The notes beneath the pieces are model-generated. The model did no database searches. It was not told where the DNA came from and saw only the letters and a program-made list of their open reading frames with translations. 64,000 bases of DNA, from assembly GCA_937928575.1 (NCBI GenBank), contig CALFWW010000028.1, positions 1 to 64,000 of the forward strand, read 5' to 3'. The position numbers were made by a program, and so were the translations under genes. This document shows, in pieces, positions 18,559 to 45,315 of this stretch (positions are counted from its first letter, which is position 1; each line of letters begins with the position of its first letter). Source of the DNA: an uncultured Saprospiraceae bacterium. Its GTDB lineage: Bacteria > Bacteroidota > Bacteroidia > Chitinophagales > Saprospiraceae.

Positions 18559-18582
18559 AAAAAAGCACGTAACAATTTTTTG
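18559..18582. repeat. Half of a terminator duplicated from the GH16 operon end
   Basis: These 24 bases (a run of A, then GCACGTAACAA, then T6 and G) are identical to 32139-32162. There they form the left arm and loop of a perfect hairpin. Here the right arm TACGTGC is missing, so the hairpin cannot form. It looks like a rearrangement scar at the edge of the decayed patch. Confidence 0.7.
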
Positions 18583-18670
18583 ATTAAACAGAAGCGAACG
18601 TATTTGGGTTCGCGCAGAGGTCGCTGATTTCGCAGATGAGCTTGTTAAGCTTGGACCTTATTTTAAAACT

Positions 18671-18880: not shown

Positions 18881-18994
18881 TGGTAAAGTCAGGAGCATGT
18901 GTTTAATGGCTTATTCAACTAGACGTGGTAAACAAATTCAACAAAAAGGCTTTTTAAGCTTAATCAGATAAATTCCTTTAACTTAAAAAAAATT

Positions 18995-22900: not shown

Positions 22901-22985
22901 TTCTTTCAATGATGCTGGTGGTATTGATAGAGGAGTTTATCCGATTCCAGGAAGAATTTTAATCGGAGCATCTCTTAATTTTTAG
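19980..22985 (+). CDS. SusC/RagA-family TonB-dependent glycan importer (locus 1)
   Basis: The 1001-residue protein has a signal peptide to about residue 28. A carboxypeptidase-regulatory-like domain follows at residues 30-110 (VSGTITDSNGEPVIGATVVG), then a TonB-box-like DEVVVVGYG near 106. The plug has SDPLYIVDGM and LKDAASAAIYGAEGANGVVLITTK. The rest is a 22-strand outer-membrane barrel ending in a terminal Phe. It imports oligosaccharides across the outer membrane using TonB energy, with the SusD lipoprotein as lid. The cognate SusD starts 21 bp downstream. The substrate is not readable from sequence. The nearby GH1 enzyme suggests beta-glucans or related glycosides. Confidence 0.93.
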   Translation: MKKLLAFIGNRMLLLFGLMFLTSLCFSQQVVSGTITDSNGEPVIGATVVGQGTSTGTITDLDGSFEITVPESVEVLEVSYTGYKTQTLPIAGTNFSSIQLQTDTEILDEVVVVGYGRQKKSVVTGAVSSVDLDQIATRSAGTLESAMQGQAAGITITPNSGAPDAGFKVKIRGTGSNGPSDPLYIVDGMRTRDISFLESSAIASLEVLKDAASAAIYGAEGANGVVLITTKNGTKNTGISYNVQYGSQSYRGNMELMDGPAYLSFLNEANPTGNFEGQGSNTDWLDEIFETAPLSRHNLSFSGGDEKLSYHVGGTYFNQAGILGGKDKSKFQRISGNLGVASKINDKLKVGVNLTYANKQTTGSGIFGDQRVGGIISSAILMDPTTPVVYDQAAGEIAIQNNADNGVLTTDEDGNVYGISNIVGGEIINPFVYLDQINGDGRNENTLFASAYGTYSILDNLEFTSRVGLETTNGTFHNWSRAYYYSPERFADAPSSVFNKFDGQSVQWENFISYDVPLGSDMELTLLAGQSIYQNNSSFLNAFAGGLAFPANEVSYVGGSEADNDVVGGNLDQRLLSYFGRANFQYADKYLLSASLRRDGTSLFADGNRFKTYPGVSVGWVISREDFFGDSGPINFLKLRGSWGQVGSLSGVMPGAGQPNVGFLYRYSDAAGGFITIGETTELANPDLTWETGEQTNIGLDFGFFEDRFTLSVDWFNKLTRDLIAQSSAPVFIGNSAPLVNAGTMSNRGLEFEAAYKNRDNALKYQVAVNVTTLKNEVTEINGGLGAIPGSFEAQVGTSWTPTVFEQGQPAWYFRGYKTEGIDENGEIIFANVDGDEMGIINEEDQTYIGDPHPNLLYGGALNLEYGNFDFTLFVQGQAGNDILVGYLREDRGTQNRPTFFNDSDFPNPSTSAGNLLRSDKMIFDGSYTRIKQIQVGYNFGSLLKGTRGLRIYGSLEDYFTFTKYPGLDPEIGSSFNDAGGIDRGVYPIPGRILIGASLNF

Positions 22986-23006
22986 AACAATAAATTTTAA
23001 ATAATT

Positions 23007-24530: not shown

Positions 24531-24556
24531 ATAGTTTTTTTTTAGTTTAACACTAA

Positions 24557-24588
24557 GGGGAGGCTGTTGGTAAGTCTCCCCATTTTTT
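24557..24588 (+). terminator. Rho-independent terminator after susC/susD
   Basis: GGGGAG pairs with CTCCCC across a loop of about 13 bases, then A and T6. It lies 26 bases after the susD stop. It would stop or reduce transcription into the FG-GAP lipoprotein gene. Confidence 0.8.
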
Positions 24589-24640
24589 ATTTTTACAGTA
24601 ATCTAAGACATACTATTGTTTAAGTACAAAATTGGTAACA

Positions 24641-27600: not shown

Positions 27601-27982
27601 TCAACATGTCTTTTTAGAAAATCAAAATGGAAATTTGAAGATGAAACCGCTTCCTAAAATTTTTCAACATTACAGTATTAATTGTATGAAATCGAAAGAC
27701 CTTAATGGAGATGGATTCTTGGATATGATAATGGCCGGAAATATTTTCGACACTGAAGCAGAAACACCTCGATTGGACAATTGTTATGGTATAGTTGCAC
27801 TAAATGATGGAAAAGGAAATTTCAACTTTGTGCCCAATCACCAGTCCGGTCTTTATATTCCTTATGAAACCAGGCAACTTGAAATTTTCAAGCAGCGAGG
27901 AAAAGAATACTTGATCGTTGGTAACAATGATGCTCCCACTCAAGTTTATTTATTGAATGAAATTTCCTCCAACTTTGATTAA
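24641..27982 (+). CDS. Large FG-GAP/VCBS and UnbV (ASPIC) repeat lipoprotein, CRTAC1-like
   Basis: The protein of about 1113 residues has a lipoprotein signal (LFWVGIFLSILCWSCQHD). Many calcium-binding FG-GAP/VCBS blades follow, each with a D-x-N/D-x-D-G-x-x-D motif (GDLNGDTLPDLFF, GDLNNDGRLDILI, DYDKDGDLDLYV, DLNQDGWPDIYV). An UnbV/ASPIC domain lies near residues 520-615 (GIGAKIYIY, ILVRGYQSS, IDSIKVVWPD). Further blades follow. The ATG at 24641 is preferred over a TTG at 24632. Proteins like this often follow susC/susD in marine Bacteroidota; a surface-binding role is inferred, and their exact role is unproven. Its stop overlaps that of the convergent regulator gene in a shared TTAA. Confidence 0.88.
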   Translation: MQNFGLPLFWVGIFLSILCWSCQHDSPDAAPSSKSSKEIFESISPDDSGIHFENSLTINDSMNYFSYGYFYMGGGVAVGDLNGDTLPDLFFTSNMNSNQLYLNKGNLKFEDISKNAGLNDSQKWHTGCSFGDLNNDGRLDILIAVGGKWKDRKNLVYLNKGNDQNGNPIFEEAAEKMGIADKGNTIQTTLFDYDKDGDLDLYVLNYPITKLDIKTPQYINLVENPKWETSDHLYRNNGNNTFTDVTAEAGLIAFGLGIGVITSDLNQDGWPDIYVSNDFQTPDFYYANNGDGTFTESLNESFQHTSFFGMGVDVGDVNNDALPDLFQVDMTTNDNYRSKANMASMDIPGFQMMVNSDLGYQYMYNSLQINNGLNKQGVPYFSNTAMSNDLASTEWSWACLFADFDLDGLSDLFISNGTRKDINNKDYFKWLKQTDTRLKIKYKELSVIDLVNKMPEKKAENYLFKNNGDQFEKANDNWNINHSGFSNGAVYADLDNDGDLEIIINNIDSTAAVFNNLSSNYNHHFLKVTLKGSDQNRYGIGAKIYIYCPDFNLYKEQILVRGYQSSIDPVLHFGLKNITKIDSIKVVWPDDKVSLLQDIPTDQTISIDYSKATTVPHSAIANNTIFSLQEKDFLNFSHQENQFNDYDREILIPHKMSSFGPALAVGDIDKNGFEDIFLGGAKGQSSQLFLNQNEKGFTKINLSHPEQEDNQALFFDINSDGHLDLLIGSGGNEKDNLSDNYYKQRYYLNTGRGNFETAQFIESPLYLSTSIVVPIKNKNNSITQFFYGGRQVPGKYPLPADSYIVNIENGKLVSVNSSSFKKIGMVTDAVAFDKDGDGDQDLLVVGEWMGIHLFENKDGVFENATDDSLIQQIGWWQSIESGDFDTDGDIDFVISNIGENYKHSASEENTFDIYANDFDDDKDLDIVLSYYQEEVQFPARGKQCSSEQMPTLNVKYPNYHSFASSNLKQVYGEEKLNESLHYKANIFQHVFLENQNGNLKMKPLPKIFQHYSINCMKSKDLNGDGFLDMIMAGNIFDTEAETPRLDNCYGIVALNDGKGNFNFVPNHQSGLYIPYETRQLEIFKQRGKEYLIVGNNDAPTQVYLLNEISSNFD

Positions 27983-30900
27983 GATTTTTTTAAAACTTGT
28001 GATGGTGTGATTCCAAATTCACTCTTAAAACACTTTCGAAAATACTGAAGGTCATTAAATCCTACTTTGTAAGTGATCTCAGAGACGTTTAACGTTCCCT
28101 CTTCTAACAATGATTTTGCTTTTTCCAATTTAATTTTTCGAATCGTTTCGTTTAAAGTGAGATTCGTAATTGCCTTTAATTTTCGATACAATTGACTTTT
28201 AGAAAAACCTAATTCTCCACAAAGGTCTTTAACAGAAAAATTATTGTCACTAATATTTGATAATACAATTCGCTTGATGTCATTCATCAGTCCAGTATCA
28301 AGTTCGGATAGTTTTGGTTCTGAGACCGATTTATTTTCATCTTGAGATACTTTAAGATTTACTTCTCGATAAGAAAGAATATTTCTAATTCGGTGTTCTA
28401 ACAATTCAGGATGAAACGGTTTTGAGATATAATGATCCACTCCATGTTCAAACCCTTTTAGCTGACTTTGTTCTGAAGATTTAACTGTTAACATTATAAT
28501 TCCGATATGATTAGTGAGGGTTTCTTCTTTAAGAGACTTTACCAATTCAAACCCATTTTTCTTTGGCATCATCAAATCTGTAATGATAATATCTGGAATT
28601 ATTACTTTAGCTTTTTCAAACGCTTCTAACCCGTCTTTTGCTAGGACCATATGATAAGTGTTAGACAGAAAACCGTTGATAAAATATCGGATATCAGGAT
28701 TATCATCAGCCAATAAAACGATAGGTTTTTCTGAAATATTTTTCATTTCGCTGTCATCTAACTCATTGGAATTTTCAATTTCGTCCTTTCCTACCCCTAG
28801 CACTAAATTGATATCTTGATTCGAATTTATCAGGTCATTTTTAAAATGTTCAGCCCCTTTTTTAAAGGTGACAAAAAATTCAGTTCCAGCACCTTCTTCG
28901 CTTTCGACCCGAATTTGACCATGATGCAATTGTGTTAATTCTTGAGTAACATACAAACCAATACCGGTGCCTCTGATTTTATTTTCATCTCGTTCTCTGT
29001 AAAATCGATCAAAAATAAATCCAATATGTTCTTTGGCGATTCCGATACCTGTATCTTTTACACTTAGAATTACGGATTCTTCATGTTCTTGCAAATTTAT
29101 TGTTATAACACCATTATCTTTTGTGTATTTGATCGCATTAGAAATCAGGTTATTTAAAATTTGTTCCATTTTATTTTCATCGAAATACAAATAAACAGCT
29201 GACTCGGGAATATTTTTCTTCAGTTTTAAATGGCGCTCCTCCAGAATGGGAACGAAATTATCACATACATTAGCAATAAAATTACCAAAATCAGCTTCTT
29301 TGACTGAAATCGAAATGCTACCCGATTCTAATTTTGCCAAATTCATAATTTGATCAATATACTTTTTCAATCGTTCAGCATTTTTCAGTGCCATGCCCGC
29401 TGTTTCGCGATTAAAGGAAGTTGAAGAATTGGATAAAAATCCTTTTAGAGGAGAGATAATTAAAGTTAGCGGTGTAATAAATTCATGAGATATATTGGCA
29501 AAAAACTTGGACTTGATTGCATCAATTTCTTTCATATTTTCTACCACTTTTTGTTCGTAAAGAATTCCGGATTTAAGTTTTTCACGATATAGCATTCCTC
29601 TAATAAAAAAGTATAATACACCAAAAAGAATTCCTATATAACAACACCATGCGAGTATGGTATCGTACCAAGGTTTATGAATTTTAAACTTAAAAGATGC
29701 AGGTTTTTCATTCCAAACCATAACATTGTTTGCACCAGATACTTCAAATTCGTAATTCCCAGGTCTAAGGTTTCGATATTCCACTTTTCGCTGGTGATTA
29801 ATCTCCTGCCAATCTTTGTCCAACCCTTTCAATTTTATCTTGAAATTATTTTGTTTGGCTTGTGTGAAATTTAAAGTTGTGAATTCAAAAGAAACATCAT
29901 TTTTGTCATAATCTAATTCAATGGTTTGTCCATTATGGTGATGCGATTGATGATCTGGATAGATAACTCCCAATTCCTTTTGTCCAATTTTTACTCGGGT
30001 TATAAATGTTTTCGGAAATTTTTTGTTCTGCTTTAACTGGTTAACATTAAAATAATTGACTCCTTCACTTCCTCCAAAATATATTTCTCCTGAATCTGAG
30101 CAAAAAATAGCTCCTCTCATAAACTCATCAGAAGTCAGTCCATCTGCTTTATTAAAAGTAGTTGCCGTTTTTGTTTTTGGATTCCAACAAAATACTCCCT
30201 TATTGGTTGCTCCCCAAATTTTCCCTTTTTCATCTTCATCAATTGATACCACCAAATTACTTGGCAGTCCTTTTTGTAAATCAATTTGTTCAGTTATTTT
30301 AGAGCCTGCTTTCAGCATGTACAATCCATTATTGGTAGCAAACCAACGATTACACTGACTATCCAGTAAGATATCGTACAATAAATGATTGTCTCTTTCC
30401 TCTTTACTTCCACCCAAAATAATATTGCTCGATTCTAATTTCAAATCTGAGTCAAATTGGAGTTGATGAATACCACTATTTTCAGTTCCAAAAAACAAAT
30501 TACCTGAACAATCGGACTGTATCACGGTAACTTTATTGCTTATCAAAAAGTCATCTTCAAATGATTTAATTTTCTCGGTCCCTTTAAAAATACTAACACC
30601 TCTTCCATACTCTGAAACATAAATGAATCCCTTTTTGTCTTGATGGATGGAATGAATAAAATTAGTAGACAACTTGTTTTTTGCTCCAATTCTTTCTTTT
30701 ACAACATCATTCAATGGATCGTATATAATGAGTCCGTCATTCCAGGTTCCTATCCAAAGTTCGTTGGGATTGACCGGAAGAATATTTGTAACTACCTTGT
30801 TACTTTTGTTAGGCCAAATATCGCATTCAATGTATTTCTTTTTTTTCTTATCGTACGCAAACAATCCATCTCCGTCAGTCCCAATCCACAACTTATCATT

Positions 30901-32049
30901 ATGTTCAACGATCGCACTTGTTAAATTGAGCTCAACTTTTCTTTCATCAACTTCAAATTTTCTAATCTTCACAAATTGAGATTCCAATTCATCAATTTTA
31001 TTGAGGCCATTAAAATAATATCCCAACCAAATTATATTATCTACATCTATAAAAATAGACCAAATAGAATTTCCCGACATTTGGTTTTCTCCATAGCCTG
31101 ATTGATATTGCTTTATTTTTTGATCGCTATCCAACACTAAAAGCCCGTCATTTTCAGTTCCGATAAAAAGTTCTGATTTAATTTGATCATAAGCCATTGA
31201 CATGATTACAAATTCATCTGATACGCTTTCAACTTTATCGATCTTTAATTGCTCTTCAACTATTCGACCTTTCAATAAACCATTATTAGTTCCCAGATAT
31301 ATTTTATCCAACCCGACAGTTTCAATACTACGCATAGGCACTGAATCCAATTCAACTCTTTCAACAACACCCGTTTTCAAATTGATAAATTGTAGTCCAA
31401 AATTTGAAGTACCTAAGAAAAGAAAATGATCGATTCCAGCAATTCTATTGATAAATTTTTGCTTTATTTGACTCAGATTAAAAGCTCCTACTTCTTGTAG
31501 TGATTTTTTTGACTTAGTGTTTATAACATTTAAACCACCTTTTTCAGTAGCAATCCACAGTAAGCCAGATGCATCCAAATAAAGATCCATCACCAAATCA
31601 CTTGACAAATGTTTTGTTCCGACATTATATTGTTCGAAAGAATTATCATCTAAATTCAATCTGCTTATTCCACTACCGTAGGTTCCAATCCAGAGTGCAT
31701 TTTCTTCCTTATCATAAGCTAAAGAAGTGACACTATTGCTAGAAACGGAATTATTACTCTCGGAATCTCTGAGATAAGTTTTGTAATCAACTCCATCAAA
31801 TCGATTCAACCCATATTGAGTACCTATCCATAAAAATCCGTTTTGATCCTGCGTTATTGCAGTAATGGTATGTTGAGACAATCCAGGTGAGACGTCATAA
31901 AAACTATAACTTTGTTGTCCTAAAACAGGCGAATTCCCCACTACTAAGACCAATAGCACAAAAGCAGCTATATTTAGGTTGAACGTGCCGATTCTTAAGA
32001 GAATTTTACTGAATATTATTTGCAAGGACATATCTTCAAATATATTCAA
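27979..32049 (-). CDS. Hybrid two-component regulator (propeller sensor, kinase, receiver, AraC output)
   Basis: The 1356-residue protein contains a whole signalling path. It has a signal peptide, then two-component-regulator propeller blades (GFLWIGTQYGLNRFDG and similar, residues about 50-690). A Y_Y_Y beta-sandwich (about 700-795) and a membrane helix near 800-825 follow. The kinase has the H-box ISHEFITPL near 850, N-box NLISNAIKYT and G-box DTGIGIAKEHIG. A receiver domain has the phospho-acceptor Asp in IIITDLMMP near 1155, and an AraC-type DNA-binding domain lies at about 1255-1356. Such HTCS proteins sense glycan fragments in the periplasm and switch on glycan loci. It lies between the two SusC/SusD loci, downstream of the GH16 operon but separated by a terminator. 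Confidence 0.94.
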   Translation of the reverse strand: MNIFEDMSLQIIFSKILLRIGTFNLNIAAFVLLVLVVGNSPVLGQQSYSFYDVSPGLSQHTITAITQDQNGFLWIGTQYGLNRFDGVDYKTYLRDSESNNSVSSNSVTSLAYDKEENALWIGTYGSGISRLNLDDNSFEQYNVGTKHLSSDLVMDLYLDASGLLWIATEKGGLNVINTKSKKSLQEVGAFNLSQIKQKFINRIAGIDHFLFLGTSNFGLQFINLKTGVVERVELDSVPMRSIETVGLDKIYLGTNNGLLKGRIVEEQLKIDKVESVSDEFVIMSMAYDQIKSELFIGTENDGLLVLDSDQKIKQYQSGYGENQMSGNSIWSIFIDVDNIIWLGYYFNGLNKIDELESQFVKIRKFEVDERKVELNLTSAIVEHNDKLWIGTDGDGLFAYDKKKKKYIECDIWPNKSNKVVTNILPVNPNELWIGTWNDGLIIYDPLNDVVKERIGAKNKLSTNFIHSIHQDKKGFIYVSEYGRGVSIFKGTEKIKSFEDDFLISNKVTVIQSDCSGNLFFGTENSGIHQLQFDSDLKLESSNIILGGSKEERDNHLLYDILLDSQCNRWFATNNGLYMLKAGSKITEQIDLQKGLPSNLVVSIDEDEKGKIWGATNKGVFCWNPKTKTATTFNKADGLTSDEFMRGAIFCSDSGEIYFGGSEGVNYFNVNQLKQNKKFPKTFITRVKIGQKELGVIYPDHQSHHHNGQTIELDYDKNDVSFEFTTLNFTQAKQNNFKIKLKGLDKDWQEINHQRKVEYRNLRPGNYEFEVSGANNVMVWNEKPASFKFKIHKPWYDTILAWCCYIGILFGVLYFFIRGMLYREKLKSGILYEQKVVENMKEIDAIKSKFFANISHEFITPLTLIISPLKGFLSNSSTSFNRETAGMALKNAERLKKYIDQIMNLAKLESGSISISVKEADFGNFIANVCDNFVPILEERHLKLKKNIPESAVYLYFDENKMEQILNNLISNAIKYTKDNGVITINLQEHEESVILSVKDTGIGIAKEHIGFIFDRFYRERDENKIRGTGIGLYVTQELTQLHHGQIRVESEEGAGTEFFVTFKKGAEHFKNDLINSNQDINLVLGVGKDEIENSNELDDSEMKNISEKPIVLLADDNPDIRYFINGFLSNTYHMVLAKDGLEAFEKAKVIIPDIIITDLMMPKKNGFELVKSLKEETLTNHIGIIMLTVKSSEQSQLKGFEHGVDHYISKPFHPELLEHRIRNILSYREVNLKVSQDENKSVSEPKLSELDTGLMNDIKRIVLSNISDNNFSVKDLCGELGFSKSQLYRKLKAITNLTLNETIRKIKLEKAKSLLEEGTLNVSEITYKVGFNDLQYFRKCFKSEFGITPSQVLKKS

Positions 32050-32193: not shown

Positions 32194-33423
32194 TTATTGA
32201 AAGACCCGGATATAATCCACAATCATTCTCTGAGGGAAAGTCGTTGTTTCATCTGGACTACCAGGCCAAATACCTCCAACAGCAACATTGAAAATGAAGA
32301 AGGAAGGTGAATTAAATGGCCATTCATAAGGCGTAATATCTGCAGGTGTCAATTGATGATATTGCACACCATCTCTTAACCATTTGATGGAATTTTCTGC
32401 CCAAATAATGGAGTAGACATGGAATTGATCTGCATAAGTTGCACCTGATAGGAAACTATTGGATCCTTTGGAGTCGCGATCTGAAGGAGAATTACCATAG
32501 TGTGCAGTTCCATAAATTAATGATGGTTGATGTCCGACCAACTCCATAATATCGATTTCACCACAAATAGGCCAACCCACTTCTTGGAAATCGGCACCCA
32601 ACATCCAAAGTGCTGGCCAAATACCACGTCCTAAAGGCATTTTCGCTCTGATATCTACGCGACCATATTGGAATTCTTGTTTGTCCATCGTAATCATCCT
32701 GGCAGACGTGTATTGGTTGCTACTAATTTGCTCTTCTCTTGCCTCAATAATCAAATAACTGTTGCTATCTGTAGCGGCTTGAAAACTATTTGCTGGATTA
32801 TTGGTGTAATATTGAAGCTCTTGATTTCCCCAACCTGATCCACCGATTTCATGTGTCCAATTGTCTCCATTAATTTCTTCTGAGTCAAATTCATCTGACC
32901 AAACTAAAGACAAACCTGGATATTCCGTAGGAGAATCTGGCCCTGAGTTGTCTACAAAAAATCCTTCATCATCATTGAGAATCGTAATGATTCCAGTAGA
33001 GCTGATAATTTCTCCAAGTATTGCATTAGAGATAACAATACGTAGTTGTTCGTCAGGCTCTGCAACAGAATCATCCACGACAGCTACTTCAATTTCTTTT
33101 TGGGTTTCACCTGGTGCAAATACAAGATTACCGCTTAGCGGCGTAAAATCTTCGTCTGAGACAGCGGATGCCGTTTCATCTAATTCTGCAATAAAGTAAT
33201 CAACTGAAACTGGTTGTGTATATGCCCAACTTAATTTCACAATGGCTTTTGCTACTCCATCTTGTTCAGATGAAGAAGAATTAACTGCACTGATTCTAGG
33301 AAATTGTACGATATCCGCATTGGTTCCATCGTCATCATCTGCACACCCACAACATAATACTAACGCACAAATGGTTAGCATCCAATAATTTCTGAATTTA
33401 GTGTTATTGATAAACTCTAACAT
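32194..33423 (-). CDS. GH16 endo-beta-glucanase lipoprotein with Calx-beta-like domain
   Basis: The 409-residue protein has a lipoprotein signal (LTICALVLCCGCADDDDG). A Calx-beta-like beta-sandwich lies at about residues 45-155 (DFTPLSGNLVFAPGETQKEI). A GH16 catalytic domain starts at about 170 with LVWSDEFD and has GNQELQYYTNN, GRGIWPALWMLG, the catalytic GEIDIMELVG (E-x-D-x-x-E) near 287, and the ending MIVDYIRVFQ. The pattern is that of bacterial laminarinases, which cut beta-1,3- or mixed-linkage glucans. The lipid anchor places it on the membrane, probably the cell surface. Its start overlaps the end of the upstream GH16 gene by 20 bp, so translation is probably coupled. It is the last gene of the operon. 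Confidence 0.93.
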   Translation of the reverse strand: MLEFINNTKFRNYWMLTICALVLCCGCADDDDGTNADIVQFPRISAVNSSSSEQDGVAKAIVKLSWAYTQPVSVDYFIAELDETASAVSDEDFTPLSGNLVFAPGETQKEIEVAVVDDSVAEPDEQLRIVISNAILGEIISSTGIITILNDDEGFFVDNSGPDSPTEYPGLSLVWSDEFDSEEINGDNWTHEIGGSGWGNQELQYYTNNPANSFQAATDSNSYLIIEAREEQISSNQYTSARMITMDKQEFQYGRVDIRAKMPLGRGIWPALWMLGADFQEVGWPICGEIDIMELVGHQPSLIYGTAHYGNSPSDRDSKGSNSFLSGATYADQFHVYSIIWAENSIKWLRDGVQYHQLTPADITPYEWPFNSPSFFIFNVAVGGIWPGSPDETTTFPQRMIVDYIRVFQ

Positions 33424-34252
33424 AATCTATTGTCATTTTAGCAGGGAGGAGTTCAGGAGAAATTCCTTGCTCACCACCCCAATCGCCACCATAGGCGATA
33501 TTTAAAAGTAAATGAAATTCCTGATCAAAAGGCCAGGATTTATAATCAGTTCGTTCGTTTTCGAAAGTAAAGTAAATTTGTCCATCTACGGAAACTGTGT
33601 ATTGATCTTCGTTCCAATCTAATGTATAAACATGAAAATCATGATCTGGTTTAGGAATATTGATTTTTCCATTTTTGTGGGTTCCAATTAGGTGGTAATA
33701 ATTCAATGTATGAGCAGAGCCTACAATGGTATCTTGATCGAAACCTACATTTTCCATGATGTCAATTTCACCACTACTTGGCCAACCACCATATTTATTT
33801 TCAGTAGGTAGCATCCAAATCGCGGACCATACACCTTTTCCTGATGCTACTTTTGCTTTGATATCTATCTTTCCGTATTTCCAATCTCCTTTGTTTTTTG
33901 AAACCAAGCGAGCGGAAGTATAATCTCTATCTTCATATTTCTCGTTGTGCACTTCAATAATCAGATGTCCATCTTCGACACGCGCATTTTCCTTTCTTTT
34001 TTCGGTGTAATATTGTAACTCATGATTTCCCCATCCGCATCCACACGGTTTGTCGCAAGCGGTACCAACATCATAACTCCATTTGGTTTCATCAGGCAAA
34101 CCATCAACATCGAACTCATCAGACCAAACCAATTTTCTGGAATCTGTATTAACATCTGCTTTCACTTCCTTTATGTTTCCAACAACACGATTGCAAGGTG
34201 AAGCGAAAGTCATAAAAAGCGAAATCAAAGAAAATAAAAATATCCCTTTCAT
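33404..34252 (-). CDS. GH16 endo-beta-glucanase, single-domain
   Basis: The 282-residue protein is almost only a GH16 domain after a signal peptide. It starts with RKLVWSDEFDVDGLPD, has GNHELQYYTE, GKGVWSAIWMLPTENK, catalytic GEIDIMENVG near residue 160, and ends MTIDYVRVYQ. A Cys follows the hydrophobic signal (MTFASPC), but the lipobox is not standard, so it may be secreted or lipidated. A Cys cluster (CDKPCGCGWGN) near residue 68 beside the active cleft is unusual. It probably cuts beta-1,3-glucan with its partner downstream. It starts 3 bases after the PKD lipoprotein stop and overlaps the next GH16 gene. Confidence 0.92.
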   Translation of the reverse strand: MKGIFLFSLISLFMTFASPCNRVVGNIKEVKADVNTDSRKLVWSDEFDVDGLPDETKWSYDVGTACDKPCGCGWGNHELQYYTEKRKENARVEDGHLIIEVHNEKYEDRDYTSARLVSKNKGDWKYGKIDIKAKVASGKGVWSAIWMLPTENKYGGWPSSGEIDIMENVGFDQDTIVGSAHTLNYYHLIGTHKNGKINIPKPDHDFHVYTLDWNEDQYTVSVDGQIYFTFENERTDYKSWPFDQEFHLLLNIAYGGDWGGEQGISPELLPAKMTIDYVRVYQ

Positions 34253-34255: not shown

Positions 34256-35089
34256 TTATTCAGCTAAAAATGTGAGTGTAAAAAATCCTGTTGATGGACT
34301 ACCGTCGCACGGTTTTAGAGGAGTCAGTACGACCATTTTGGTTTCAGACATTTCGACAATATCATAATAAGGTCCTGAATCTTCGATTGCTAAAAACATC
34401 TCTGGTTGGTCCAATTCAATTCGATCGGTGCCTTCCCACCCCCCTCCTACAATGTAGGTCCAGGATAAAGCGGCAGGTACTTGATAATTTGGATCATCTA
34501 TAAATCCTTGACAAGCAGAAAAGGTTCCTCCACCGTTATTGTAATCCAGAATAAAAGTTTCTGCATCAAAACACCATCGATCGTCCAATTGGGTCGGCTC
34601 TAATCCTGTTGAAGTAAACCATTCTCCTGATAGAGGAATTGGTCCAACTTTGACAGAACCATCTTCCTCAGACAATTTCCAGCACTTTGTGGTACAGTCT
34701 TGCGTGAATAATGAGAAATTCCCTTCGCATCCTAACACTGCATCTTCAGCTACGTTAACAGATTGTTGACTTGAAGCAGTTCCACTACCATCTGCAGCTG
34801 ACACATGTAGCTTGATCGTATAATCTCCTTTTTTGTTGAAGCCAACCGAATCTCGTTTTAAAGTACTGGTTTTCGGCATTGCATCATCTCCAAAATCCCA
34901 TACTCTTGTAAAATTTCCTTCTGACAAATCTTCTACCCAAAATTTATTCGGGTTGTCTGCAAAAGGTTCGACAGAAAAAGGAGGATCATCTGGCAAATTG
35001 CCTGGGAGCGAAAAGTCTTCTTGTTCTTCGCATTGCGTAAATAGCAACAGACACAACGAAGCAAATAATATTAATTTTAAATTTTTCAT
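34256..35089 (-). CDS. PKD-domain lipoprotein, probable surface glycan-binding protein
   Basis: The 277-residue protein has a lipoprotein signal (LFASLCLLLFTQCEEQ). A PKD-like domain lies at about residues 40-115 (FTRVWDFGDDAMPKTST, then KKGDYTIKLHVSAADG). A C-terminal beta-rich domain (TTKCWKLSEEDGSVKVGP, then YDIVEMSETKMVVLTP) resembles the lipocalin-like or SusF-like binding modules in this position of other loci. It occupies the slot after susD where SusE/SusF-type surface glycan-binding proteins are found. Binding of the polymer that the two GH16 enzymes cut is inferred from that position. No catalytic motif is seen. Confidence 0.82.
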   Translation of the reverse strand: MKNLKLILFASLCLLLFTQCEEQEDFSLPGNLPDDPPFSVEPFADNPNKFWVEDLSEGNFTRVWDFGDDAMPKTSTLKRDSVGFNKKGDYTIKLHVSAADGSGTASSQQSVNVAEDAVLGCEGNFSLFTQDCTTKCWKLSEEDGSVKVGPIPLSGEWFTSTGLEPTQLDDRWCFDAETFILDYNNGGGTFSACQGFIDDPNYQVPAALSWTYIVGGGWEGTDRIELDQPEMFLAIEDSGPYYDIVEMSETKMVVLTPLKPCDGSPSTGFFTLTFLAE

Positions 35090-36674: not shown

Positions 36675-39600
36675 TTAGAAGGTAACTTGAATTCCACCTA
36701 AGATGGTTCTTGACTGCGGGAAAAATCCACGATCAATTCCAATATCCAAAGGTGCAAATTGAACATCTTGTGTACGACCAATTTCTGGATCGTAACCAGA
36801 GTAATTTGTAAAAGTCCACAAATTTTGGACAGAACCGTAAATTCTGAATTTCGAAAATTTCATTCTATCTAACAATGCATTTGGAAGGTTGTAACCTATT
36901 TGAACATTTTTGATACGAAGATAAGATCCATCTTCTATGAAATAATCTGAAACTCGGTAATTATTATTAGGATTTGCTCGACTCAATCTTGGTTCAAAAT
37001 CGGAAGTTCCTTCACCGGTCCATCTATCCAAAACTCTAGCTGGTTTATTTCCTTCTAATTTATCAAATCTTGTGGATGCATTATACACTTCATTTCCTGA
37101 AACTCCTTGAACGAAAAAGCTAAGATCGAAGCTCTTAAACTCCGCACTTCCTGTGATACCAAAAGTGAAATCTGGTGTTGGATTTCCAAGATAAGTTTTG
37201 TCGTTGTTATCAATAATACCATCTCCATTAAAATCTACATAACGGAAATCTCCAGGTGCGGTTTCATCACTTTGAAAAAAGATATCTTCTAAATCATCTG
37301 CAGTTAGACTAGGATCATTAGCTAAGGCAGTAGTTCGAGCATCTGCATTGGCTGCAGCAATTTCTTCCTCATTTTGAAAAAGGCCATCCGTATGCCAGCC
37401 AAAGAAAGAAGCAATTGGTTGGCCTACATCTGTTTTGGCTACGACATCCCCGAAGATAGCACCAGAAAAAATAGGGGCATCTCCACCTAAAAATGTAACC
37501 TCATTTTTGATGATCGAAACATTTCCACCTAATTCATATTTGAAGGCTCTATCTCTGTTTCTATAATTTAATGCCAACTCAACACCTCGGTTATCAACGG
37601 TACCAATATTTCTGGTCGGAGCAAATGCACCAACGACTCCAGGTATTGGAGGATTGTGAAGCATGTCTACCGTTTCTTTGATAAAGTAATCTCCAATGAA
37701 ATTTATTTTACCATCAAACAATTCCAAGTCAACACCAAAGTTGGTTTGAATAGAAGTTTCCCAACGCAATTCCGAGTTCGCAATTTGAAGAGCCACTACC
37801 CCATTGGTAATTGTTTCGTCTGGACCAAAAGTATAATTCTGTCCTCCATTTACATTTGTGGACCATTGATAATCTCCGATTCTATCATTTCCATTTTGCC
37901 CCCAACTAGCACGGAATTTCAACAAACTAATTGCATTTACATCAAAGAAGTCTTCTCTGGAAACTACCCAAGCTAAAGAAGCAGCCGGGAAATATCCAAA
38001 ACGATTGCTTGGTCCAAATCGAGAAGAACCGTCTGCACGAAAAGAAACCATCGCTACATATTTGTTTTTGTATTCATAGTCAATTCTACCAAAAGCAGAG
38101 AATAAAACATTTTCAACTGCCCATTGAGAAGCGCCTCTCGTACCACTATCAATGGTATTGTTGATGTAAGCATCTTCTGGATCATTGGACGGTAGACCAG
38201 TGTTAGAACTGCCATTAAATTCAATTCCCCCATCGATATAAGAGATACCACCCAATGCAGTAAAACTGTGATTTTCACCTATATTATCCGTGTAAGTCAA
38301 TACATTTTCCAATTGTGATGACCTAAAAATCCAGTCGTTGATTCCAACTGAATTTGTCAAATTGACCTCAGGTGTAGGTGGTGTATCTGTACTATCTACT
38401 GCCAAATTCCAAGTAGGACGGAATCCTCTTTCTTGTGCAAAATTCACATCTAAACTATAAGTAGATTTTAGTTTCAATTTTGGAGTAAAATCGATGGTTC
38501 CATAAACGGCACCGACCAATCGATTGGTTGTCCAACCTCCATGTGTATTTGCAATGTTATTGACAGGATTTCTAATATCCGTATCAATAAAATCTGAGTA
38601 AGCATAGGTTCCATCCGGCTTCAATACAGGCGTCAAAGGGTCCATGTTTAAAGCTTGAATAATAGGAGAATCAAACTGATTGTTTTCAACAAGTGCAGAT
38701 CTTGTTAGATTTGTAAAACCTAAGTTAGTTCCAACATTCAACCAATCTTTTACTTGATATCCTGCAACTGCTCTTACGGTCTTTCTTTCAAAAGATGATT
38801 TCGGTCCACCAACAATTCCTTCTTGTTTGAAGTAGTTGCCAGAAAGACCAATATTGAAACCTTCAGCACCTCCATTCATGCTTATTTGATGACTCTGAAT
38901 TGGAGCGCTCTCAAAAATAGCTTCTTGCCAATCCGTTCCTTCGTTGAAAATAGAGGGATCTTCCAAATTAATACGTGGTGCAACTCCTGCGTTGATATCC
39001 TGTTCGTTTTGAATAACAGCGTATTCACGAGCATTTAATAAATCTATTTTTTTGGAAGCCTTTTGTATCCCATAATAGCTTTCATAGGATATTTTTGCTT
39101 CTTGATTGGCTCCAGCACCGGATTTGGTTTTCACTAAGACCACACCGTTTGCAGCTCTTGAACCATAAATCGCAGCAGAAGCAGCATCTTTTAAAACGGA
39201 AATGCTCTCTACATCATTTGGATTTAAGAATTCCAGATCCGCAACCGCAATTCCATCAACAATATATAATGGATCACTATTATTGACGGTACCAAGTCCA
39301 CGTACTCTCACTGTTAGTGCAGCACCTGGTGAACCAGAATTTTGAGTAATTTGTATACCTGCCGATCTTCCTTGCAATGCTTGCTCGACTCTAAGAACTG
39401 GTGTTTCGGAAATTTCATCGGAACTCAACGTAGCAACAGATCCACTGATGGAGCTTCTTTTTTTGTTACCATATCCAACGACTACGACTTCATCAAAGTA
39501 TTGTGCAGCCGTACCCATTTCGATATTTATAGATGCTCTTGTGTCGATAGGTACGTTTTGGGTTTCCATACCGACATAAGAAAAAATAAGGGTTGAAGTG

Positions 39601-39806
39601 GGTGAACTAACATTGATTTCATAAGTTCCATCAAAATCGGTTATGGTACCATTTGTCTCGTTGCCTTGCTCGACTACTGTGACACCGATGAGTTCTTCAT
39701 CTCCTTCCATCACCTTTCCGGTAACAGTATGTTGAGCAGAAAGTGAAATGATCATCATTGCAAAGACACAGGTGAGAAATGTCTTGAACATATACTTGTT
39801 TTTCAT
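36675..39806 (-). CDS. SusC/RagA-family TonB-dependent glycan importer (locus 2)
   Basis: The 1043-residue protein starts with a signal peptide (MFKTFLTCVFAMMIISLSAQ). A regulatory-like beta-sandwich follows (HTVTGKVMEGDEELIGVTVV), then the TonB-box-like FDEVVVVGYG near residue 110. The plug has NSDPLYIVDGIAVADLEFL and LKDAASAAIYGSRAANGVVLVKTK. The long barrel ends in VTF. It brings glucan oligosaccharides across the outer membrane with the SusD partner. An ATG three codons upstream of MFKTF is used (39806). A hairpin lies between it and the upstream T9SS-exported protein gene, which may lower or tune read-through. Confidence 0.93.
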   Translation of the reverse strand: MKNKYMFKTFLTCVFAMMIISLSAQHTVTGKVMEGDEELIGVTVVEQGNETNGTITDFDGTYEINVSSPTSTLIFSYVGMETQNVPIDTRASINIEMGTAAQYFDEVVVVGYGNKKRSSISGSVATLSSDEISETPVLRVEQALQGRSAGIQITQNSGSPGAALTVRVRGLGTVNNSDPLYIVDGIAVADLEFLNPNDVESISVLKDAASAAIYGSRAANGVVLVKTKSGAGANQEAKISYESYYGIQKASKKIDLLNAREYAVIQNEQDINAGVAPRINLEDPSIFNEGTDWQEAIFESAPIQSHQISMNGGAEGFNIGLSGNYFKQEGIVGGPKSSFERKTVRAVAGYQVKDWLNVGTNLGFTNLTRSALVENNQFDSPIIQALNMDPLTPVLKPDGTYAYSDFIDTDIRNPVNNIANTHGGWTTNRLVGAVYGTIDFTPKLKLKSTYSLDVNFAQERGFRPTWNLAVDSTDTPPTPEVNLTNSVGINDWIFRSSQLENVLTYTDNIGENHSFTALGGISYIDGGIEFNGSSNTGLPSNDPEDAYINNTIDSGTRGASQWAVENVLFSAFGRIDYEYKNKYVAMVSFRADGSSRFGPSNRFGYFPAASLAWVVSREDFFDVNAISLLKFRASWGQNGNDRIGDYQWSTNVNGGQNYTFGPDETITNGVVALQIANSELRWETSIQTNFGVDLELFDGKINFIGDYFIKETVDMLHNPPIPGVVGAFAPTRNIGTVDNRGVELALNYRNRDRAFKYELGGNVSIIKNEVTFLGGDAPIFSGAIFGDVVAKTDVGQPIASFFGWHTDGLFQNEEEIAAANADARTTALANDPSLTADDLEDIFFQSDETAPGDFRYVDFNGDGIIDNNDKTYLGNPTPDFTFGITGSAEFKSFDLSFFVQGVSGNEVYNASTRFDKLEGNKPARVLDRWTGEGTSDFEPRLSRANPNNNYRVSDYFIEDGSYLRIKNVQIGYNLPNALLDRMKFSKFRIYGSVQNLWTFTNYSGYDPEIGRTQDVQFAPLDIGIDRGFFPQSRTILGGIQVTF

Positions 39807-39821: not shown

Positions 39822-39863
39822 AAAAAGGATAAAAGAGTTGCTGAAATCGCCACTCCTTTATCC
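39822..39863 (-). terminator. Hairpin with T-run between first operon gene and susC
   Basis: GGATAAAAGAGT (39827-39838) pairs with ACTCCTTTATCC (39852-39863), 11 of 12. On the minus strand the stem is followed by TTTTT. It lies 25 bases after the stop of the binding-protein gene. It could fully end that transcript or act as a partial terminator that sets its dose relative to susC. Confidence 0.7.
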
Positions 39864-39888
39864 TTTGTAAAACTGATAAATTAAGTTC

Positions 39889-42285
39889 TTACTGAACTAA
39901 TAATTTCTTGGTAGTTGTTTTTTGTCCAACTTTTACCTTCACAAAATGAAGTCCACTTGGGAAATCGGTTACTTCAATTTGCTTTGTAGCTACATTGTTA
40001 AATTCAGATTGGAAAATAACTTTTCCAGCGATATCAACAATTGAAATTTCCTGATTAGGCGTTACTTCATTGAATTCAATTGTAAATGCTTGGTTGGTGA
40101 TTGTTGGGAAAATACGAACCAAATCATTGTCTACAATTATATTTTCGGTATTTACCATTAGGTCACATGATCCGAATGACACCAAGTTGATGGTCGTATC
40201 TGCTGGAGCTAACAATAACAATCTGTTTGTAAATTGACCAGAAGGATCTGTAATCGTACAAGGCTCCTGTGAGTCAATAATTTCTGCGTCATTTCCATTT
40301 AAGAATTTATACTCATGTGCCCCTTCAGGTAATTGTACCGTTACCGTATAAGTGTCGTCACCTTCAGGATCTAACATTTCTGTTGTCATCGCTTGCCAGT
40401 TATTGATAGAGTTTCCAAAAATCCAAACACCATCTGTTACTGTTTCCATTGACATATCAACATTGAAAGTCACATTGTATAATTCAACTTGTCCGCATGA
40501 GAAATCCGTTGTACACTCTCCATAGCAAGTATTGATAACTACATCATCTGTCAAAGCAGGTAGGTTTCTATCATTAAAAGGCTCCACTGCGCAAGATTGA
40601 CCAGCTATGTTTTCTTTACAGCTCCAATCAGGTAAACAAGTCCCGTTGATAAATGTATAGTCAGAAGTAAATCCTACACCTCTCTCGATTGTCAAAGACC
40701 AAACACCATCTCCATCATCATCTTTTAGTGGGAAATCACCGTGTCCAAATGCGACACCACCAGCAACAAACAATCCTTCTGGGCTTACTACATCAATCAA
40801 TGCATCACTCACATTCCAAGTAATTGTCAATGCTTCTCCGCAAGCGTAGCAACTATTCCAACAATAAGTACCCTCTGTAACATCCGACAACACAGTCATC
40901 GATCTATTGGTGAAAATATTTCCATTACCATCATCTGTTGAAACGGTACATTCATCTGTTCCATTAAATTCTTCCTGAACCGCCCAATCATCTAAAGTGA
41001 ATTTATATTCGTATGCACCTTGTTGCATTGTCACGGTACCTTCCCAAATATTATCTCCATCTGTATCATCAAGTGGGTTTGCAACGCCATTCCAACCGTT
41101 GAAACTTCCGCTTACGTATACTTGTGTGTAGGTTCCTGTGTATTCATTCATATCTACGCTAAAAGTTACGTCGTAATCATTGACTACATTGCTGGTTTTT
41201 ACAACAAAATCATCCAGATAAAAATTAATGTCAGTCCCATCACCGGCAACACCGAAGTCAGGGAAAATTACTAGGTTTGGATAGATAAAGCCAGCAGTCG
41301 TACCCATATTCCCTTCAAAAGAAGGAACTGTTAAATCAAAACACACTTCTTCCCATTGGTTATTTCCAACGACGGTTTGCGTATTTATCCAGTTATCAGG
41401 ATCTGTGTTATCTGCCAATTCTAATTTCAGTGTCATATTTCCAGGGTGATCTGAGTGCACTTTCATACAAATTTCAGAAGTCAATGTCCCATCAATAGGG
41501 TTTGCTAGTCCACCCACCAAAAAAGATCCTGCCCAAGTTTGAGCGTCTCCGCCTTTTATATATTGCATCACGTTTGCACTGGTATTCACACCTGTCGGAT
41601 TTGGATTAGGAATAACGGTAGTAAGTGTACCGTCAAGAGAAGAACCAAAATATTGGAAATCGCCAGAAAGTGACTCCCAATCTAAAAAAGTAGTGCAGGT
41701 AACATCACCACCTCCGCCGCCACTAGGAATCGTAAAGTTGTCAAAATAAGCATCTACCTGTGTTCCTGTCCCCATCACACCAAAATCAACGAACATGACA
41801 ATATTGTTATACATATTCCCTGTACCAGGAGCCATGTTTCCATCCAAAGAATTCAAGCTTAAATCAAAACAGATATTTTCCCAAGCATTGGTAACCGTGT
41901 TTACTACTTCTTGTCTGTAGTTGATTGGATCATTTGGGTCAGCTGTCTCTAATTTCAAACTCACATTTCCGATGTGATCCATCCAAACATCCATACAAAC
42001 TTGGCCACCATTCGTTGCATCAATACCTCCTGCTGGCGGCATTGTACTGAAAGCGCCTCCCCAAGTAGGTGCATCATCTGCTTTGGAAATTTGGATGACC
42101 ATAGCGGATGTATTCGCACCAGATGGATCTGGGTTTGCAATAGCTGATGTGACGACTCCTTCAAGTGAACCTCCAAAATGTTGGAATGAAGTTGCGGATC
42201 CTGGGTTTTCAAAATCCCAGATATTTGTTTGGGCAGAAGCAAAGGCAATTGCAAAACAAAATAGAATAGTAAAGTATTTTTTCAT
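39889..42285 (-). CDS. T9SS-exported multi-module carbohydrate-binding protein
   Basis: The 798-residue protein has a signal peptide (to about 19). Two homologous beta-sandwich modules follow at about 20-190 and 198-370 (each with FQHFGGSLEG or FQYFGSSLDG, NPxPxGxNTSxxV and TWxGxF). A GGGGG linker separates them. Three E-set modules like glycogen/starch-binding domains lie at about 372-480, 485-595 and 600-700 (VYVSGSFNGWN, then EYKFT). A type A T9SS sorting domain (about 725-798) has VRIFPTITNQAFTIEF and ends KKLLVQ. No catalytic motif is seen, so it probably captures polysaccharide at the surface or in the medium. It is the first gene of the GH16/SusCD locus. The Pro-Asn-Pro of the usual sorting motif is altered to FPT. 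Confidence 0.85.
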   Translation of the reverse strand: MKKYFTILFCFAIAFASAQTNIWDFENPGSATSFQHFGGSLEGVVTSAIANPDPSGANTSAMVIQISKADDAPTWGGAFSTMPPAGGIDATNGGQVCMDVWMDHIGNVSLKLETADPNDPINYRQEVVNTVTNAWENICFDLSLNSLDGNMAPGTGNMYNNIVMFVDFGVMGTGTQVDAYFDNFTIPSGGGGGDVTCTTFLDWESLSGDFQYFGSSLDGTLTTVIPNPNPTGVNTSANVMQYIKGGDAQTWAGSFLVGGLANPIDGTLTSEICMKVHSDHPGNMTLKLELADNTDPDNWINTQTVVGNNQWEEVCFDLTVPSFEGNMGTTAGFIYPNLVIFPDFGVAGDGTDINFYLDDFVVKTSNVVNDYDVTFSVDMNEYTGTYTQVYVSGSFNGWNGVANPLDDTDGDNIWEGTVTMQQGAYEYKFTLDDWAVQEEFNGTDECTVSTDDGNGNIFTNRSMTVLSDVTEGTYCWNSCYACGEALTITWNVSDALIDVVSPEGLFVAGGVAFGHGDFPLKDDDGDGVWSLTIERGVGFTSDYTFINGTCLPDWSCKENIAGQSCAVEPFNDRNLPALTDDVVINTCYGECTTDFSCGQVELYNVTFNVDMSMETVTDGVWIFGNSINNWQAMTTEMLDPEGDDTYTVTVQLPEGAHEYKFLNGNDAEIIDSQEPCTITDPSGQFTNRLLLLAPADTTINLVSFGSCDLMVNTENIIVDNDLVRIFPTITNQAFTIEFNEVTPNQEISIVDIAGKVIFQSEFNNVATKQIEVTDFPSGLHFVKVKVGQKTTTKKLLVQ

Positions 42286-42480: not shown

Positions 42481-45315
42481 ATGAAATTAAAAAGAGGAAA
42501 CAGAATATTATTTTTTTTGTTCATAAGTTGGAGTGTTTTATTGAATGCTCAAAATTTTAATTTGGGAAGTCCTATTATTTCCAATTTTTCGAAACAGACC
42601 TATCAAGGTGCCACGCAATCATGGGATGCAATTTACGGACTCAATGATCACATCTTTTTTGCTAATAACGATGGATTACTAAGTTATGATGGCAATACTT
42701 GGGAAAAGTTTGCATTACCCAATAAAACGATCACTCGGTCGCTAGCTATCCATCAAAACAAAATATATGTGGGTGGTCAAGATGAAATTGGATTTTTTCA
42801 GGCTGTAAAAAGTGGGCATTTGATTTATCAATCGATTATGGAACAGATTCCTAGTGCTCACAAAAATTTATCAGATATATGGGATATCGAATTTCAAGAT
42901 ACTACTTTATTTTTCCGGACCTCTGATAAAATTTTTCATCAACATCAAGATTCATTTATTGTTTATCAAACTGGAAATCCGATAACAGCGCTTGGCAAAT
43001 TCAATGACCAAATTATTTTTGCTGAGCGACAACAAGGACTTTTTAAAATTGAAGGTAACACGTATTCTTTTGTGGAAGGTACTGAGATCCTAAAAGATAA
43101 GGACATCTCAAAGATGCTTACTCTGACAGAAGATTTTTTTCTTATCTGTACCGAGAGAAATGGGGTGTATGTATTTGATGGGGCGAATTGCACAGAATGG
43201 TCTGCAACCAATACTGCTTTTTTTAAGAAGAATCGAATCTTAAGTGCTTGTAAAATAAATAACAATCAATTGGCGATCGGAACTTTACTAAATGGTGTAG
43301 TTATTCTGAATATCGACGGTGAGGCCATTTATCATATTCAAAAAGAAAAAGGATTGCAAAATAACAGTATATCTACAATGTGTACGGACAACTCTGGCAA
43401 TCTCTGGCTGGGAACTTACAACGGAATAGATCAGATAAAAATGGGTGTTTCTATTTCTAAAATTATACCCGATGGAAATTTGGAAGGTGCTGTTTATGAT
43501 GTTGCTATTTGGAATGACCATATTTATTTTGGGACTATAAACGGACTTTATTATTTGCCCTGGAAAGATTATTACAATCCATTTCAAAAGGAAGAGTTTA
43601 AGTTAATACCGAATACTGCCGGACAAGTTTGGGGACTGGATGTGATAGATGATCAATTATTTCTAGGTCACAATGATGGTGCTTTTCAAATTACTACTGA
43701 ACAGGAAGCCATAAAAATGGGCACTCCTCCAGGTGCTTGGAAATTTATCAAGCTAGATGACCAACATTTAATTTCAGGAAATTATGAAGGGTTGAATTTA
43801 TACAAAAAAATAAATGGTCAATGGGTTCATGAAAAAAAGTACCAAGGCTTTAATGAATCTTCGAGAATTTTAACGTTGGATAAATTTCAAAACTTATGGG
43901 TCGCGCATCCTTATCGTGGAATTTTCAAAATAAAATTCGCCTCCGATTTTCGATCAATTGATGTTGAAAAAATCGAATCTGATAAAATCGGTCAACCATT
44001 AGCTAGTTATGTATTCGATATCAATAACGAAACCTATGTCACGAATGAAGAAAATATTTTAGTATTTGATTACCAAAAAAATGCTTTTAAAAATAACAAC
44101 AAATTTTCTGAAATTCTTGAAAACAATGCCGACGTAAAAAGATTGTTTGAAGATGAAGAAAACCATATTTGGTACATCACTCCTACCCAAACAGGTGAAG
44201 TGGTTTTAGATGAAAACAATGACTTTACTCACGTGATTTATCCTGAAATAAGTGATGTTTTTGTTGGTGGATTTGAAAATTTAATCCTTTATTCTGATCA
44301 GCATATATTTGCTTGTACCGAAAAAGGAGTGTTGCATTTCAATAAATTAAAATCTAGACAAGCACATCAATTGAAAGCCAATATCAGTTCTATGTACTCA
44401 TTAAAACCTGTAAATGAATTGTTGCACAGTGGGTACAGAAACACACAGTACATCCCTGATTTAGAAGCGGATCAAAATGAAGTTCGATTTACTTTTTCTA
44501 CGGATAATTTTGTAGATCCTAGTAATATATCGTACTCATTTAAACTGGACGGTCTGGATAAAGAATGGAGTCAGTGGAGTGACATCAACACCAAGGAATA
44601 CACGAATTTAAATAACGGTGATTATTCCTTTTTATTGAAAGCCAAAGATCAATTTGGAATTGAAAGTGAGGTGACCCATTTTGATTTTCATATTCAAGCG
44701 CCTTGGTATAAAAGCTTAATCGCTTATCTCATCTATACCCTTCTTGCTATTGGATTTTTATTGGCAATGGTAATGATTCCAAGAATTCGACATCTAGAAG
44801 AAACTGCACAACTATTAGAGGATAAAAAGGAAAAAGAAGCAGAAGTGGAAAAGCTCAAACTTGAAAAATTGCAATCAGAAATCGATTTCAAAAATAAAGA
44901 ATTGGCCTCCTCAACAATGCATTTACTTCAGAAAAATAGTACGCTCAACAAGGTACGTGAAGACATTGAGAAAATTCAAAAACGACTGGAAAGTGATGAG
45001 GCCAAAAAAGAAGTTCGAAAGGTATTAAGTGTCTTAAAAGATGATGAACGACTTGAAGAAGATTGGGAAAATTTTTCTTACCATTTTGATCAAGTTCATA
45101 GTAATTTTATCAAGCGACTAAAACAAAATTATCCAAATCTTACACCAAAAGATCAGAAGCTCTGCGCTTATCTTCGCATGAATTTGAGCACCAAAGAAAT
45201 AGCACCTTTATTGAATATTTCTGTGAGAGGGGTTGAAATTAGTCGCTATCGATTGCGGAAGAAATTGCAGTTGGCTAAAGAGGAAAATTTGTCTGCTTTT
45301 ATGATTGAGTTTTAG
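42481..45315 (+). CDS. Membrane-spanning propeller sensor with LuxR-type DNA-binding output
   Basis: The 944-residue protein has a signal peptide and a periplasmic beta-propeller made of two-component-regulator-like blades (DGLLSYDGNTWEKF, NSGNLWLGTYNGIDQI). A Y_Y_Y domain (YSFKLDGLDKEWSQWSDINT) comes next, with one membrane helix near residues 745-765. A charged coiled coil lies at about 770-850, and a LuxR-type helix-turn-helix at about 880-944 (LTPKDQKLCAYLRMNLSTKE, then ISVRGVEISRYRLRKKL). There is no kinase or receiver, so the signal must pass through the membrane helix directly to the DNA-binding part. Such proteins regulate neighbouring glycan loci in Bacteroidota. It is divergent from the GH16/SusCD operon and so is the first candidate regulator of it. 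Confidence 0.9.
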   Translation: MKLKRGNRILFFLFISWSVLLNAQNFNLGSPIISNFSKQTYQGATQSWDAIYGLNDHIFFANNDGLLSYDGNTWEKFALPNKTITRSLAIHQNKIYVGGQDEIGFFQAVKSGHLIYQSIMEQIPSAHKNLSDIWDIEFQDTTLFFRTSDKIFHQHQDSFIVYQTGNPITALGKFNDQIIFAERQQGLFKIEGNTYSFVEGTEILKDKDISKMLTLTEDFFLICTERNGVYVFDGANCTEWSATNTAFFKKNRILSACKINNNQLAIGTLLNGVVILNIDGEAIYHIQKEKGLQNNSISTMCTDNSGNLWLGTYNGIDQIKMGVSISKIIPDGNLEGAVYDVAIWNDHIYFGTINGLYYLPWKDYYNPFQKEEFKLIPNTAGQVWGLDVIDDQLFLGHNDGAFQITTEQEAIKMGTPPGAWKFIKLDDQHLISGNYEGLNLYKKINGQWVHEKKYQGFNESSRILTLDKFQNLWVAHPYRGIFKIKFASDFRSIDVEKIESDKIGQPLASYVFDINNETYVTNEENILVFDYQKNAFKNNNKFSEILENNADVKRLFEDEENHIWYITPTQTGEVVLDENNDFTHVIYPEISDVFVGGFENLILYSDQHIFACTEKGVLHFNKLKSRQAHQLKANISSMYSLKPVNELLHSGYRNTQYIPDLEADQNEVRFTFSTDNFVDPSNISYSFKLDGLDKEWSQWSDINTKEYTNLNNGDYSFLLKAKDQFGIESEVTHFDFHIQAPWYKSLIAYLIYTLLAIGFLLAMVMIPRIRHLEETAQLLEDKKEKEAEVEKLKLEKLQSEIDFKNKELASSTMHLLQKNSTLNKVREDIEKIQKRLESDEAKKEVRKVLSVLKDDERLEEDWENFSYHFDQVHSNFIKRLKQNYPNLTPKDQKLCAYLRMNLSTKEIAPLLNISVRGVEISRYRLRKKLQLAKEENLSAFMIEF

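Follow-up and report, generated by a model that had tools for sequence, protein, structure and literature searches.

A multi-module protein with T9SS export signals at the head of a putative beta-1,3-glucan locus in Saprospiraceae

In the Sus paradigm, glycans are captured by outer-membrane lipoproteins. One described binding protein, a cellulose-binding outer-membrane protein needed for polysaccharide use, is non-catalytic and has tandem CBM-like sandwiches. In beta(1,3)-glucan loci of Bacteroides, SGBP-B is a lipoprotein encoded by the gene after susD (PMC7157763), and the fungal cell wall locus of Chitinophaga pinensis includes PUL enzymes with T9SS tails and CBMs, beta-1,3-glucan binders among them (PMC10449523).

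A 64,000-nt stretch of DNA from an uncultured Saprospiraceae bacterium (GenBank assembly GCA_937928575.1; contig CALFWW010000028.1; coordinates 1 to 64,000), here called the window, was found to carry a gene, the head gene, in front of a susC/susD pair. Like SGBP-B, the predicted product is a non-catalytic, multi-module binding protein encoded together with SusC and SusD. However, SGBP-B has a lipobox and its gene follows susD, whereas the head protein has no lipobox, its gene precedes susC and it ends in a T9SS tail. The SGBP-B slot is filled here by a separate PKD lipoprotein with a lipobox cysteine, and the head protein is an extra component. The tandem sandwiches and the lack of catalysis are shared with the cellulose-binding protein, which differs in having two CBM-like domains only and, as far as the available part of its description goes, no mention of a T9SS tail. 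The combination of a T9SS tail with CBMs is shared with the C. pinensis cargo, but that cargo consists of enzymes whereas the head protein includes none.

The module types and the kind of locus are known, and it is the arrangement that is new; there is no new system. Saprospiraceae, which are abundant in wastewater plants, encode an additional, enzyme-free putative capture protein with T9SS export signals, the modules of which are swapped between species. A sequence-only reading of the window had described the head protein as an exported, non-catalytic capture protein feeding polymer to the SusCD pair, and the finding is real and the core of that interpretation sound. The head protein probably leaves the cell by the T9SS and serves a beta-1,3-glucan (laminarin-type) locus as an auxiliary binding protein; its sandwiches would bind the glucan and its E-sets would add surfaces.

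The head gene, its export signals and its operon

The minus-strand reading of coordinates 39889 to 42285 is a single frame of 798 aa, and the plus-strand reading, which contains 33 stops, was ruled out. The product begins with a Sec-type signal (MKKYFTILFCFAIAFASA; coordinates 42232 to 42285, minus strand as for all parts of this gene) that was read by eye, contains no lipobox cysteine and forms a helix at residues 2–16 in the model. Module borders were set by profile HMM, which placed sandwich 1 at residues 20–186 (coordinates 41728 to 42228) and sandwich 2, 47% identical to it, at residues 198–363 (41197 to 41694). These are followed by E-set 1 (residues 371–480; 40846 to 41175) and E-set 3 (residues 603–707; 40165 to 40479), both of CBM48/AMPK type and also found by Pfam, with E-set 2 (residues 487–597; 40495 to 40827), of a divergent, cysteine-rich type recognised by profile HMM, between them. 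A T9SS type A C-terminal sorting domain (residues 718–798; 39892 to 40134) completes the protein. The two homologous sandwiches, three E-sets and T9SS tail that the sequence-only reading had placed in one gene were thus all recovered (profile HMM, Pfam, NCBIfam), and neither Pfam nor NCBIfam found a catalytic family in the head protein, in agreement with its remark that a catalytic motif was lacking. A Foldseek search with the model of the entire 798-aa protein returned chiefly extended alignments of low TM to proteins of several domains, the informative rows being the single-domain ones only, such as 8qx6 and 8glk, and no module had a protease or an adhesin as its best match.

The export signals proposed for this non-catalytic protein also held. 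The tail was identified as Por_Secre_tail by Pfam (residues 725–797) and as the TIGR04183 T9SS type A tail by NCBIfam (39.8 bits against a cut-off of 23), and its fold matches the NucA sorting domain 8glk (TMt 0.88). As the source genome encodes both PorU, the T9SS sortase (1309 bits), and SprA (2180 bits), each over its cut-off, the tail can be used. By its sequence, therefore, the head protein has the features of T9SS type A cargo, namely a sorting domain and a predicted Sec signal. These signals would place it outside the cell, with passage through Sec followed by T9SS export, and it may sit at the cell surface or in the matrix around the cell, further out than SusD and the PKD/SGBP-B lipoprotein.

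The gene order claimed earlier, with the head gene in front of susC, susD, PKD, GH16 and GH16, was confirmed by Pfam and sequence reading, and all of these genes lie on the minus strand, followed by a hybrid two-component regulator (HTCS; Pfam; 27979 to 32049). The conserved downstream neighbour of the head gene encodes a SusC-like TonB-dependent transporter, assigned by sequence reading (36675 to 39806), and is followed by the gene for a SusD-like lipoprotein (PF07980; 35119 to 36642). The PKD lipoprotein (Pfam; 34256 to 35089) is of SGBP-B type; it gave a full-length profile match to PDB 7kv5, 7kv6 and 7kv7 (E 4e-35), and Cys 20 is invariant in its family. We take 7kv5 to be the SGBP-B of a beta(1,3)-glucan locus in Bacteroides. 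The next two genes, assigned by sequence reading and Pfam, encode a GH16 enzyme with the motif GEIDIMENVG (33404 to 34252) and a Calx-beta plus GH16 enzyme with the motif GEIDIMELVG (32194 to 33423), so that the EIDIME motif is intact in both. A divergent regulator of Reg_prop/Y_Y_Y/LuxR type (Pfam; 42481 to 45315, plus strand) lies on the other side of the head gene. GH3 is absent from the window's own operon, and SusC/SusD, an SGBP-B homologue, GH16 and GH3 are all present in loci L050 and L171; the loci of relatives add GH3 and GH5-CBM6. Judged from their sequences, the remaining operon genes support beta-1,3-glucan as the probable substrate. Coordinates 19980 to 27982 hold a further susC/susD pair and, after it, a long FG-GAP/ASPIC-like gene, whose end and that of the convergent HTCS gene overlap.

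A terminator-like hairpin followed by a T-run (39824 to 39866, minus strand) was found in the 82-nt gap between the head gene and susC, for which the MFE is -21.8 kcal/mol, and a similar structure occurs in the same place in 8 relatives. Under one fixed definition, a hairpin with a T-run was present in 9 of 27 head–susC gaps of at least 40 nt, where about 0.1 would be expected from shuffled sequences; the same definition gave 0 of 15 susC–susD gaps, 0 of 18 susD–PKD gaps and 2 of 12 PKD–GH16 gaps. Since twenty more head–susC gaps are too short for such a hairpin, and the 48-nt gap of the sister genome L046 contains none, the structure is recurrent and not universal. Its presence suggests that transcription of the head gene can stop there, which may, for example, provide more head protein than SusC. 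Because it stands between the two genes here and in several relatives, strict co-transcription of the head gene and susC is not certain.

Sandwich modules and their relationship to a laminarin-binding CBM

A profile built from 44 sandwiches had a single sequence match in the PDB, entry 8qx6 (E 1e-13; positions 22–163 of 165), which carries the description 'Novel laminarin-binding CBM X584' and which we take to be CBM102 of a Christiangramia forsetii SGBP, presumably that of Zuehlke et al. 2024. The same entry ranked first in Foldseek for the sandwich model (pLDDT 96), and VIA-align gave a Z of 16.7 over 151 residues at 2.7 A, with CBM11 in the next row at Z 12.1. An SGBP of the same type also matched 8qx6 as a single sequence (E 2.6e-8). 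The sandwiches are homologous to a laminarin-binding CBM, with the same fold and detectable sequence homology. As this kinship is distant, with only 21–22% identity, the claim extends to homology and a likely beta-glucan ligand, with no assigned sub-family. The specificity of the sandwiches could have drifted, given this level of identity and given that the invariant Trp of their WAG/WGG motif has no conserved counterpart in the alignment with 8qx6. By homology to 8qx6, the ligand would be beta-1,3-glucan, and much of the answer to the ligand question left by the sequence-only reading comes from this relationship. Its proposal of a capture protein fits the sandwiches, as relatives of a solved laminarin-binding CBM.

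The sandwich module was present in 53 of 296 sampled Bacteroidota genomes. In several neighbourhoods fetched from other Bacteroidota families, two or three sandwiches were found in a PKD-type binding protein whose gene directly follows that of SusD and precedes GH16, in PULs with GH16 and often also GH3 and GH5; the X584 type of module is thus shared with PKD-type binding proteins of beta-glucan PULs. The X584 CBM belongs to a lipoprotein SGBP, whereas here a tandem pair of the module is combined with E-sets and a T9SS tail. In four Saprospiraceae loci (L056, L057, L058 and L062), a lipoprotein of 526–530 aa with two sandwiches (L056 coordinates 10270 to 11850) occupies the PKD lipoprotein slot of the operon, and the module occurs in both the head and the SGBP.

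The head slot in related loci

Forty Saprospiraceae loci around the best homologues were picked by similarity to the head protein alone, and the relatives in named records were from Saprospiraceae or unplaced Bacteroidota. The next gene was susC in 39 of the 40 loci, the exception (L055) being at a contig end; in L084, a mechanical ORF list includes a 98-aa opposite-strand ORF between the head gene and susC. GH16 was visible in 35 loci, and the remaining five stretches end before it. A Y_Y_Y-type or HTCS-like regulator was found just upstream of the head gene in 33 loci, as a divergent Y_Y_Y-type gene in 30, a Y_Y_Y-type gene in the same direction in L048 and L064, and an HTCS-like gene in the same direction in L047. 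As full-length homologues in the same order are present in dozens of Saprospiraceae genomes, the module layout and gene order are not due to chance. The head gene is accordingly found in related GH16/SusCD loci but is not universal among them: the related PULs L176, L177 and L178 have no head gene, indicating that it is not essential.

This strict linkage of the head to susC and a PUL regulator makes it improbable that the protein is primarily an adhesin or matrix protein, attaching cells to algal walls, fungal walls or a biofilm matrix through the glucan in them, with nutrition as a secondary role. T9SS is known to export adhesins, and that reading would also accommodate two orphan T9SS paralogues encoded outside PULs in the source genome, one with three E-sets and a T9SS tail (L042, contig C33; coordinates 17713 to 19332) and one with two sandwiches and a T9SS tail (L043, contig C202; coordinates 6228 to 7514).

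The architecture found in the window was shared by 20 of the 40 heads, while a single sandwich is present in nine, two E-sets in seven and four E-sets in two; the other two are a rearranged module string (L076) and an incomplete head (L067). The slot is therefore usually filled by one or two sandwiches with two to four E-sets. The L067 head (coordinates 758 to 2806) ends within E-set 3 and has no sorting tail, unlike its close sisters L069 to L071, suggesting a frameshift or an assembly error. Some beta-glucanase loci have, in this slot or the one next to it, a head consisting of E-sets only (L144, L169, L170 and L182, with those in L169 and L170 divergent from susC); the L144 head has five modules of E-set 2 type and the L169 head five of E-set 1/3 type. 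Proteins with E-set 2 as their only binding module belong to a second type of PUL, in which the enzymes are GH5-CBM6 (L147 to L154). In L147 to L153, this second type comprises SusC, SusD (about 590 aa), a PKD-like protein, a T9SS protein with two or three copies of E-set 2, and GH5-CBM6.

From genome to genome the modules differ in number and type, in the manner of beads on a string, as would befit an avidity device rather than an enzyme. With the sandwiches bound to beta-1,3-glucan, the E-sets may offer additional surfaces, most likely to bind that polymer too, and the modules together would give avidity for long or particulate glucan. Polymer caught in this way would stay close to the proteins that would cut and import it, the GH16 enzymes at the surface and the SGBP-B/SusCD complex.

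E-set modules and their possible ligand

Pfam identified AMPK1_CBM/CBM48/CBM20 in E-sets 1 and 3 (AMPK1_CBM 57 bits, cut-off 26.8; CBM_48 36.2 bits, cut-off 22.4), with E-set 2 below detection, and PDB entries for AMPK beta and for alpha-glucan enzymes matched the E-set 1 profile. In the alignment, E-set 1 keeps W, K, W and N at the equivalents of AMPK W100, K126, W133 and N150, which we take to be the AMPK glucan-contact residues; the fourth is read from the alignment as the Asn of a conserved Asn-Arg pair. E-set 3 has lost the second W of these contacts. E-set 2, though missed by Pfam, is homologous to the other E-sets by profile (hhalign 98.8%) and has conserved cysteines in a sequence from which the Trp/Lys pattern of the glucan site has been lost; its profile found nothing in the PDB below E 0.4. 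It was detected in 98 of 298 Saprospiraceae genomes and in only 3 of 296 sampled Bacteroidota genomes, two of these being Saprospiraceae. E-sets 1 and 3 therefore resemble CBM48/AMPK1_CBM in their matches above the cut-off and, for E-set 1, in the four contact residues, but differ in belonging to a non-catalytic protein of a beta-glucanase locus, with E-set 2 as a cysteine-rich branch without the contact residues.

Three GH13 amylase genes (L198 at 7693, L199 at 4134 and L200 at 7215) carry one or two N-terminal modules related to E-sets 1 and 3. With these fusions and the retained E-set 1 contacts, an alpha-glucan ancestry of the E-sets is plausible on sequence grounds, and part of the head protein may bind alpha-glucan. 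It is nevertheless unlikely that the protein is a bispecific bridge, with sandwiches on beta-1,3-glucan and E-sets on alpha-1,4-glucan (glycogen or starch), linking two storage glucans or anchoring to an alpha-glucan-containing matrix. The profile matches of E-set 1 to AMPK beta and alpha-glucan enzymes are in line with such a bridge, but the amylase-fused E-sets form a clade separate from those of the PULs (support 0.993), and E-set-only heads are found in beta-glucanase PULs. In addition, CBM48-type modules on Bacteroidota CE1 esterases showed no starch binding (PMC8040265), so the CBM48 scaffold is not diagnostic of alpha-glucan. The statement in the sequence-only reading that such E-sets are usually linked to alpha-glucan is thus half right: the contact residues kept in E-set 1 agree with it, whereas the CE1 modules and the E-set-only heads do not.

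Genomic context also speaks against the bridge, as no GH13 (PF00128) lies within 20 kb of a head gene among the matches listed for 39 genomes, and the nearest one here, about 21 kb away, lies outside this operon. GH13 as a member of the head operon was considered and not found. Conversely, no non-catalytic E-set repeat protein was encoded in 20 fetched GH13 loci, a control that is weak for starch PULs because SusC/SusD pairs were nearby in just 2 of the 20 (L184 and L193). In the window, a GH32-like sucrose/fructan hydrolase gene, recognised by eye (61247 to 62737; ~20 kb from the head gene), is followed by the GH13 gene (PF00128; 62866 to 63999; ~20–21 kb from the head gene), which is outside the head operon.

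A role for the E-sets as spacers, merely extending the sandwiches as a binding head from the surface, is slightly more doubtful still. The varying repeat number and the lost Trp/Lys pattern of E-set 2 would suit spacers, but the conserved contact residues of E-set 1 would not, and the E-set-only heads, including those of the GH5-type loci, are unexplained by spacers alone.

The reading of the E-sets as extra binding surfaces, most likely for beta-glucan, can tentatively be taken further, with somewhat less than even confidence: the E-sets, above all the cysteine-rich E-set 2, may represent a new CBM family, built on the CBM48/AMPK scaffold, with a ligand changed from alpha- to beta-glucan, and the T9SS head may at the same time serve Saprospiraceae PULs generally as a third, exchangeable component for glycan binding. 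If the E-sets do bind beta-glucan, the common annotation of AMPK1_CBM/CBM48 as starch or glycogen binding misleads for Saprospiraceae, and E-set 2, a module type without a Pfam model, would gain a ligand. The occurrence of E-set-only and mixed heads at the same operon position makes the E-set ligand question directly testable.

Strings of E-set 2 modules were also found after FG-GAP regions in T9SS-tailed proteins with no adjoining SusCD (L156, L157, L158 and L159), and ASPIC/UnbV domains are present as well in those of L156 and L159, the two that were checked.
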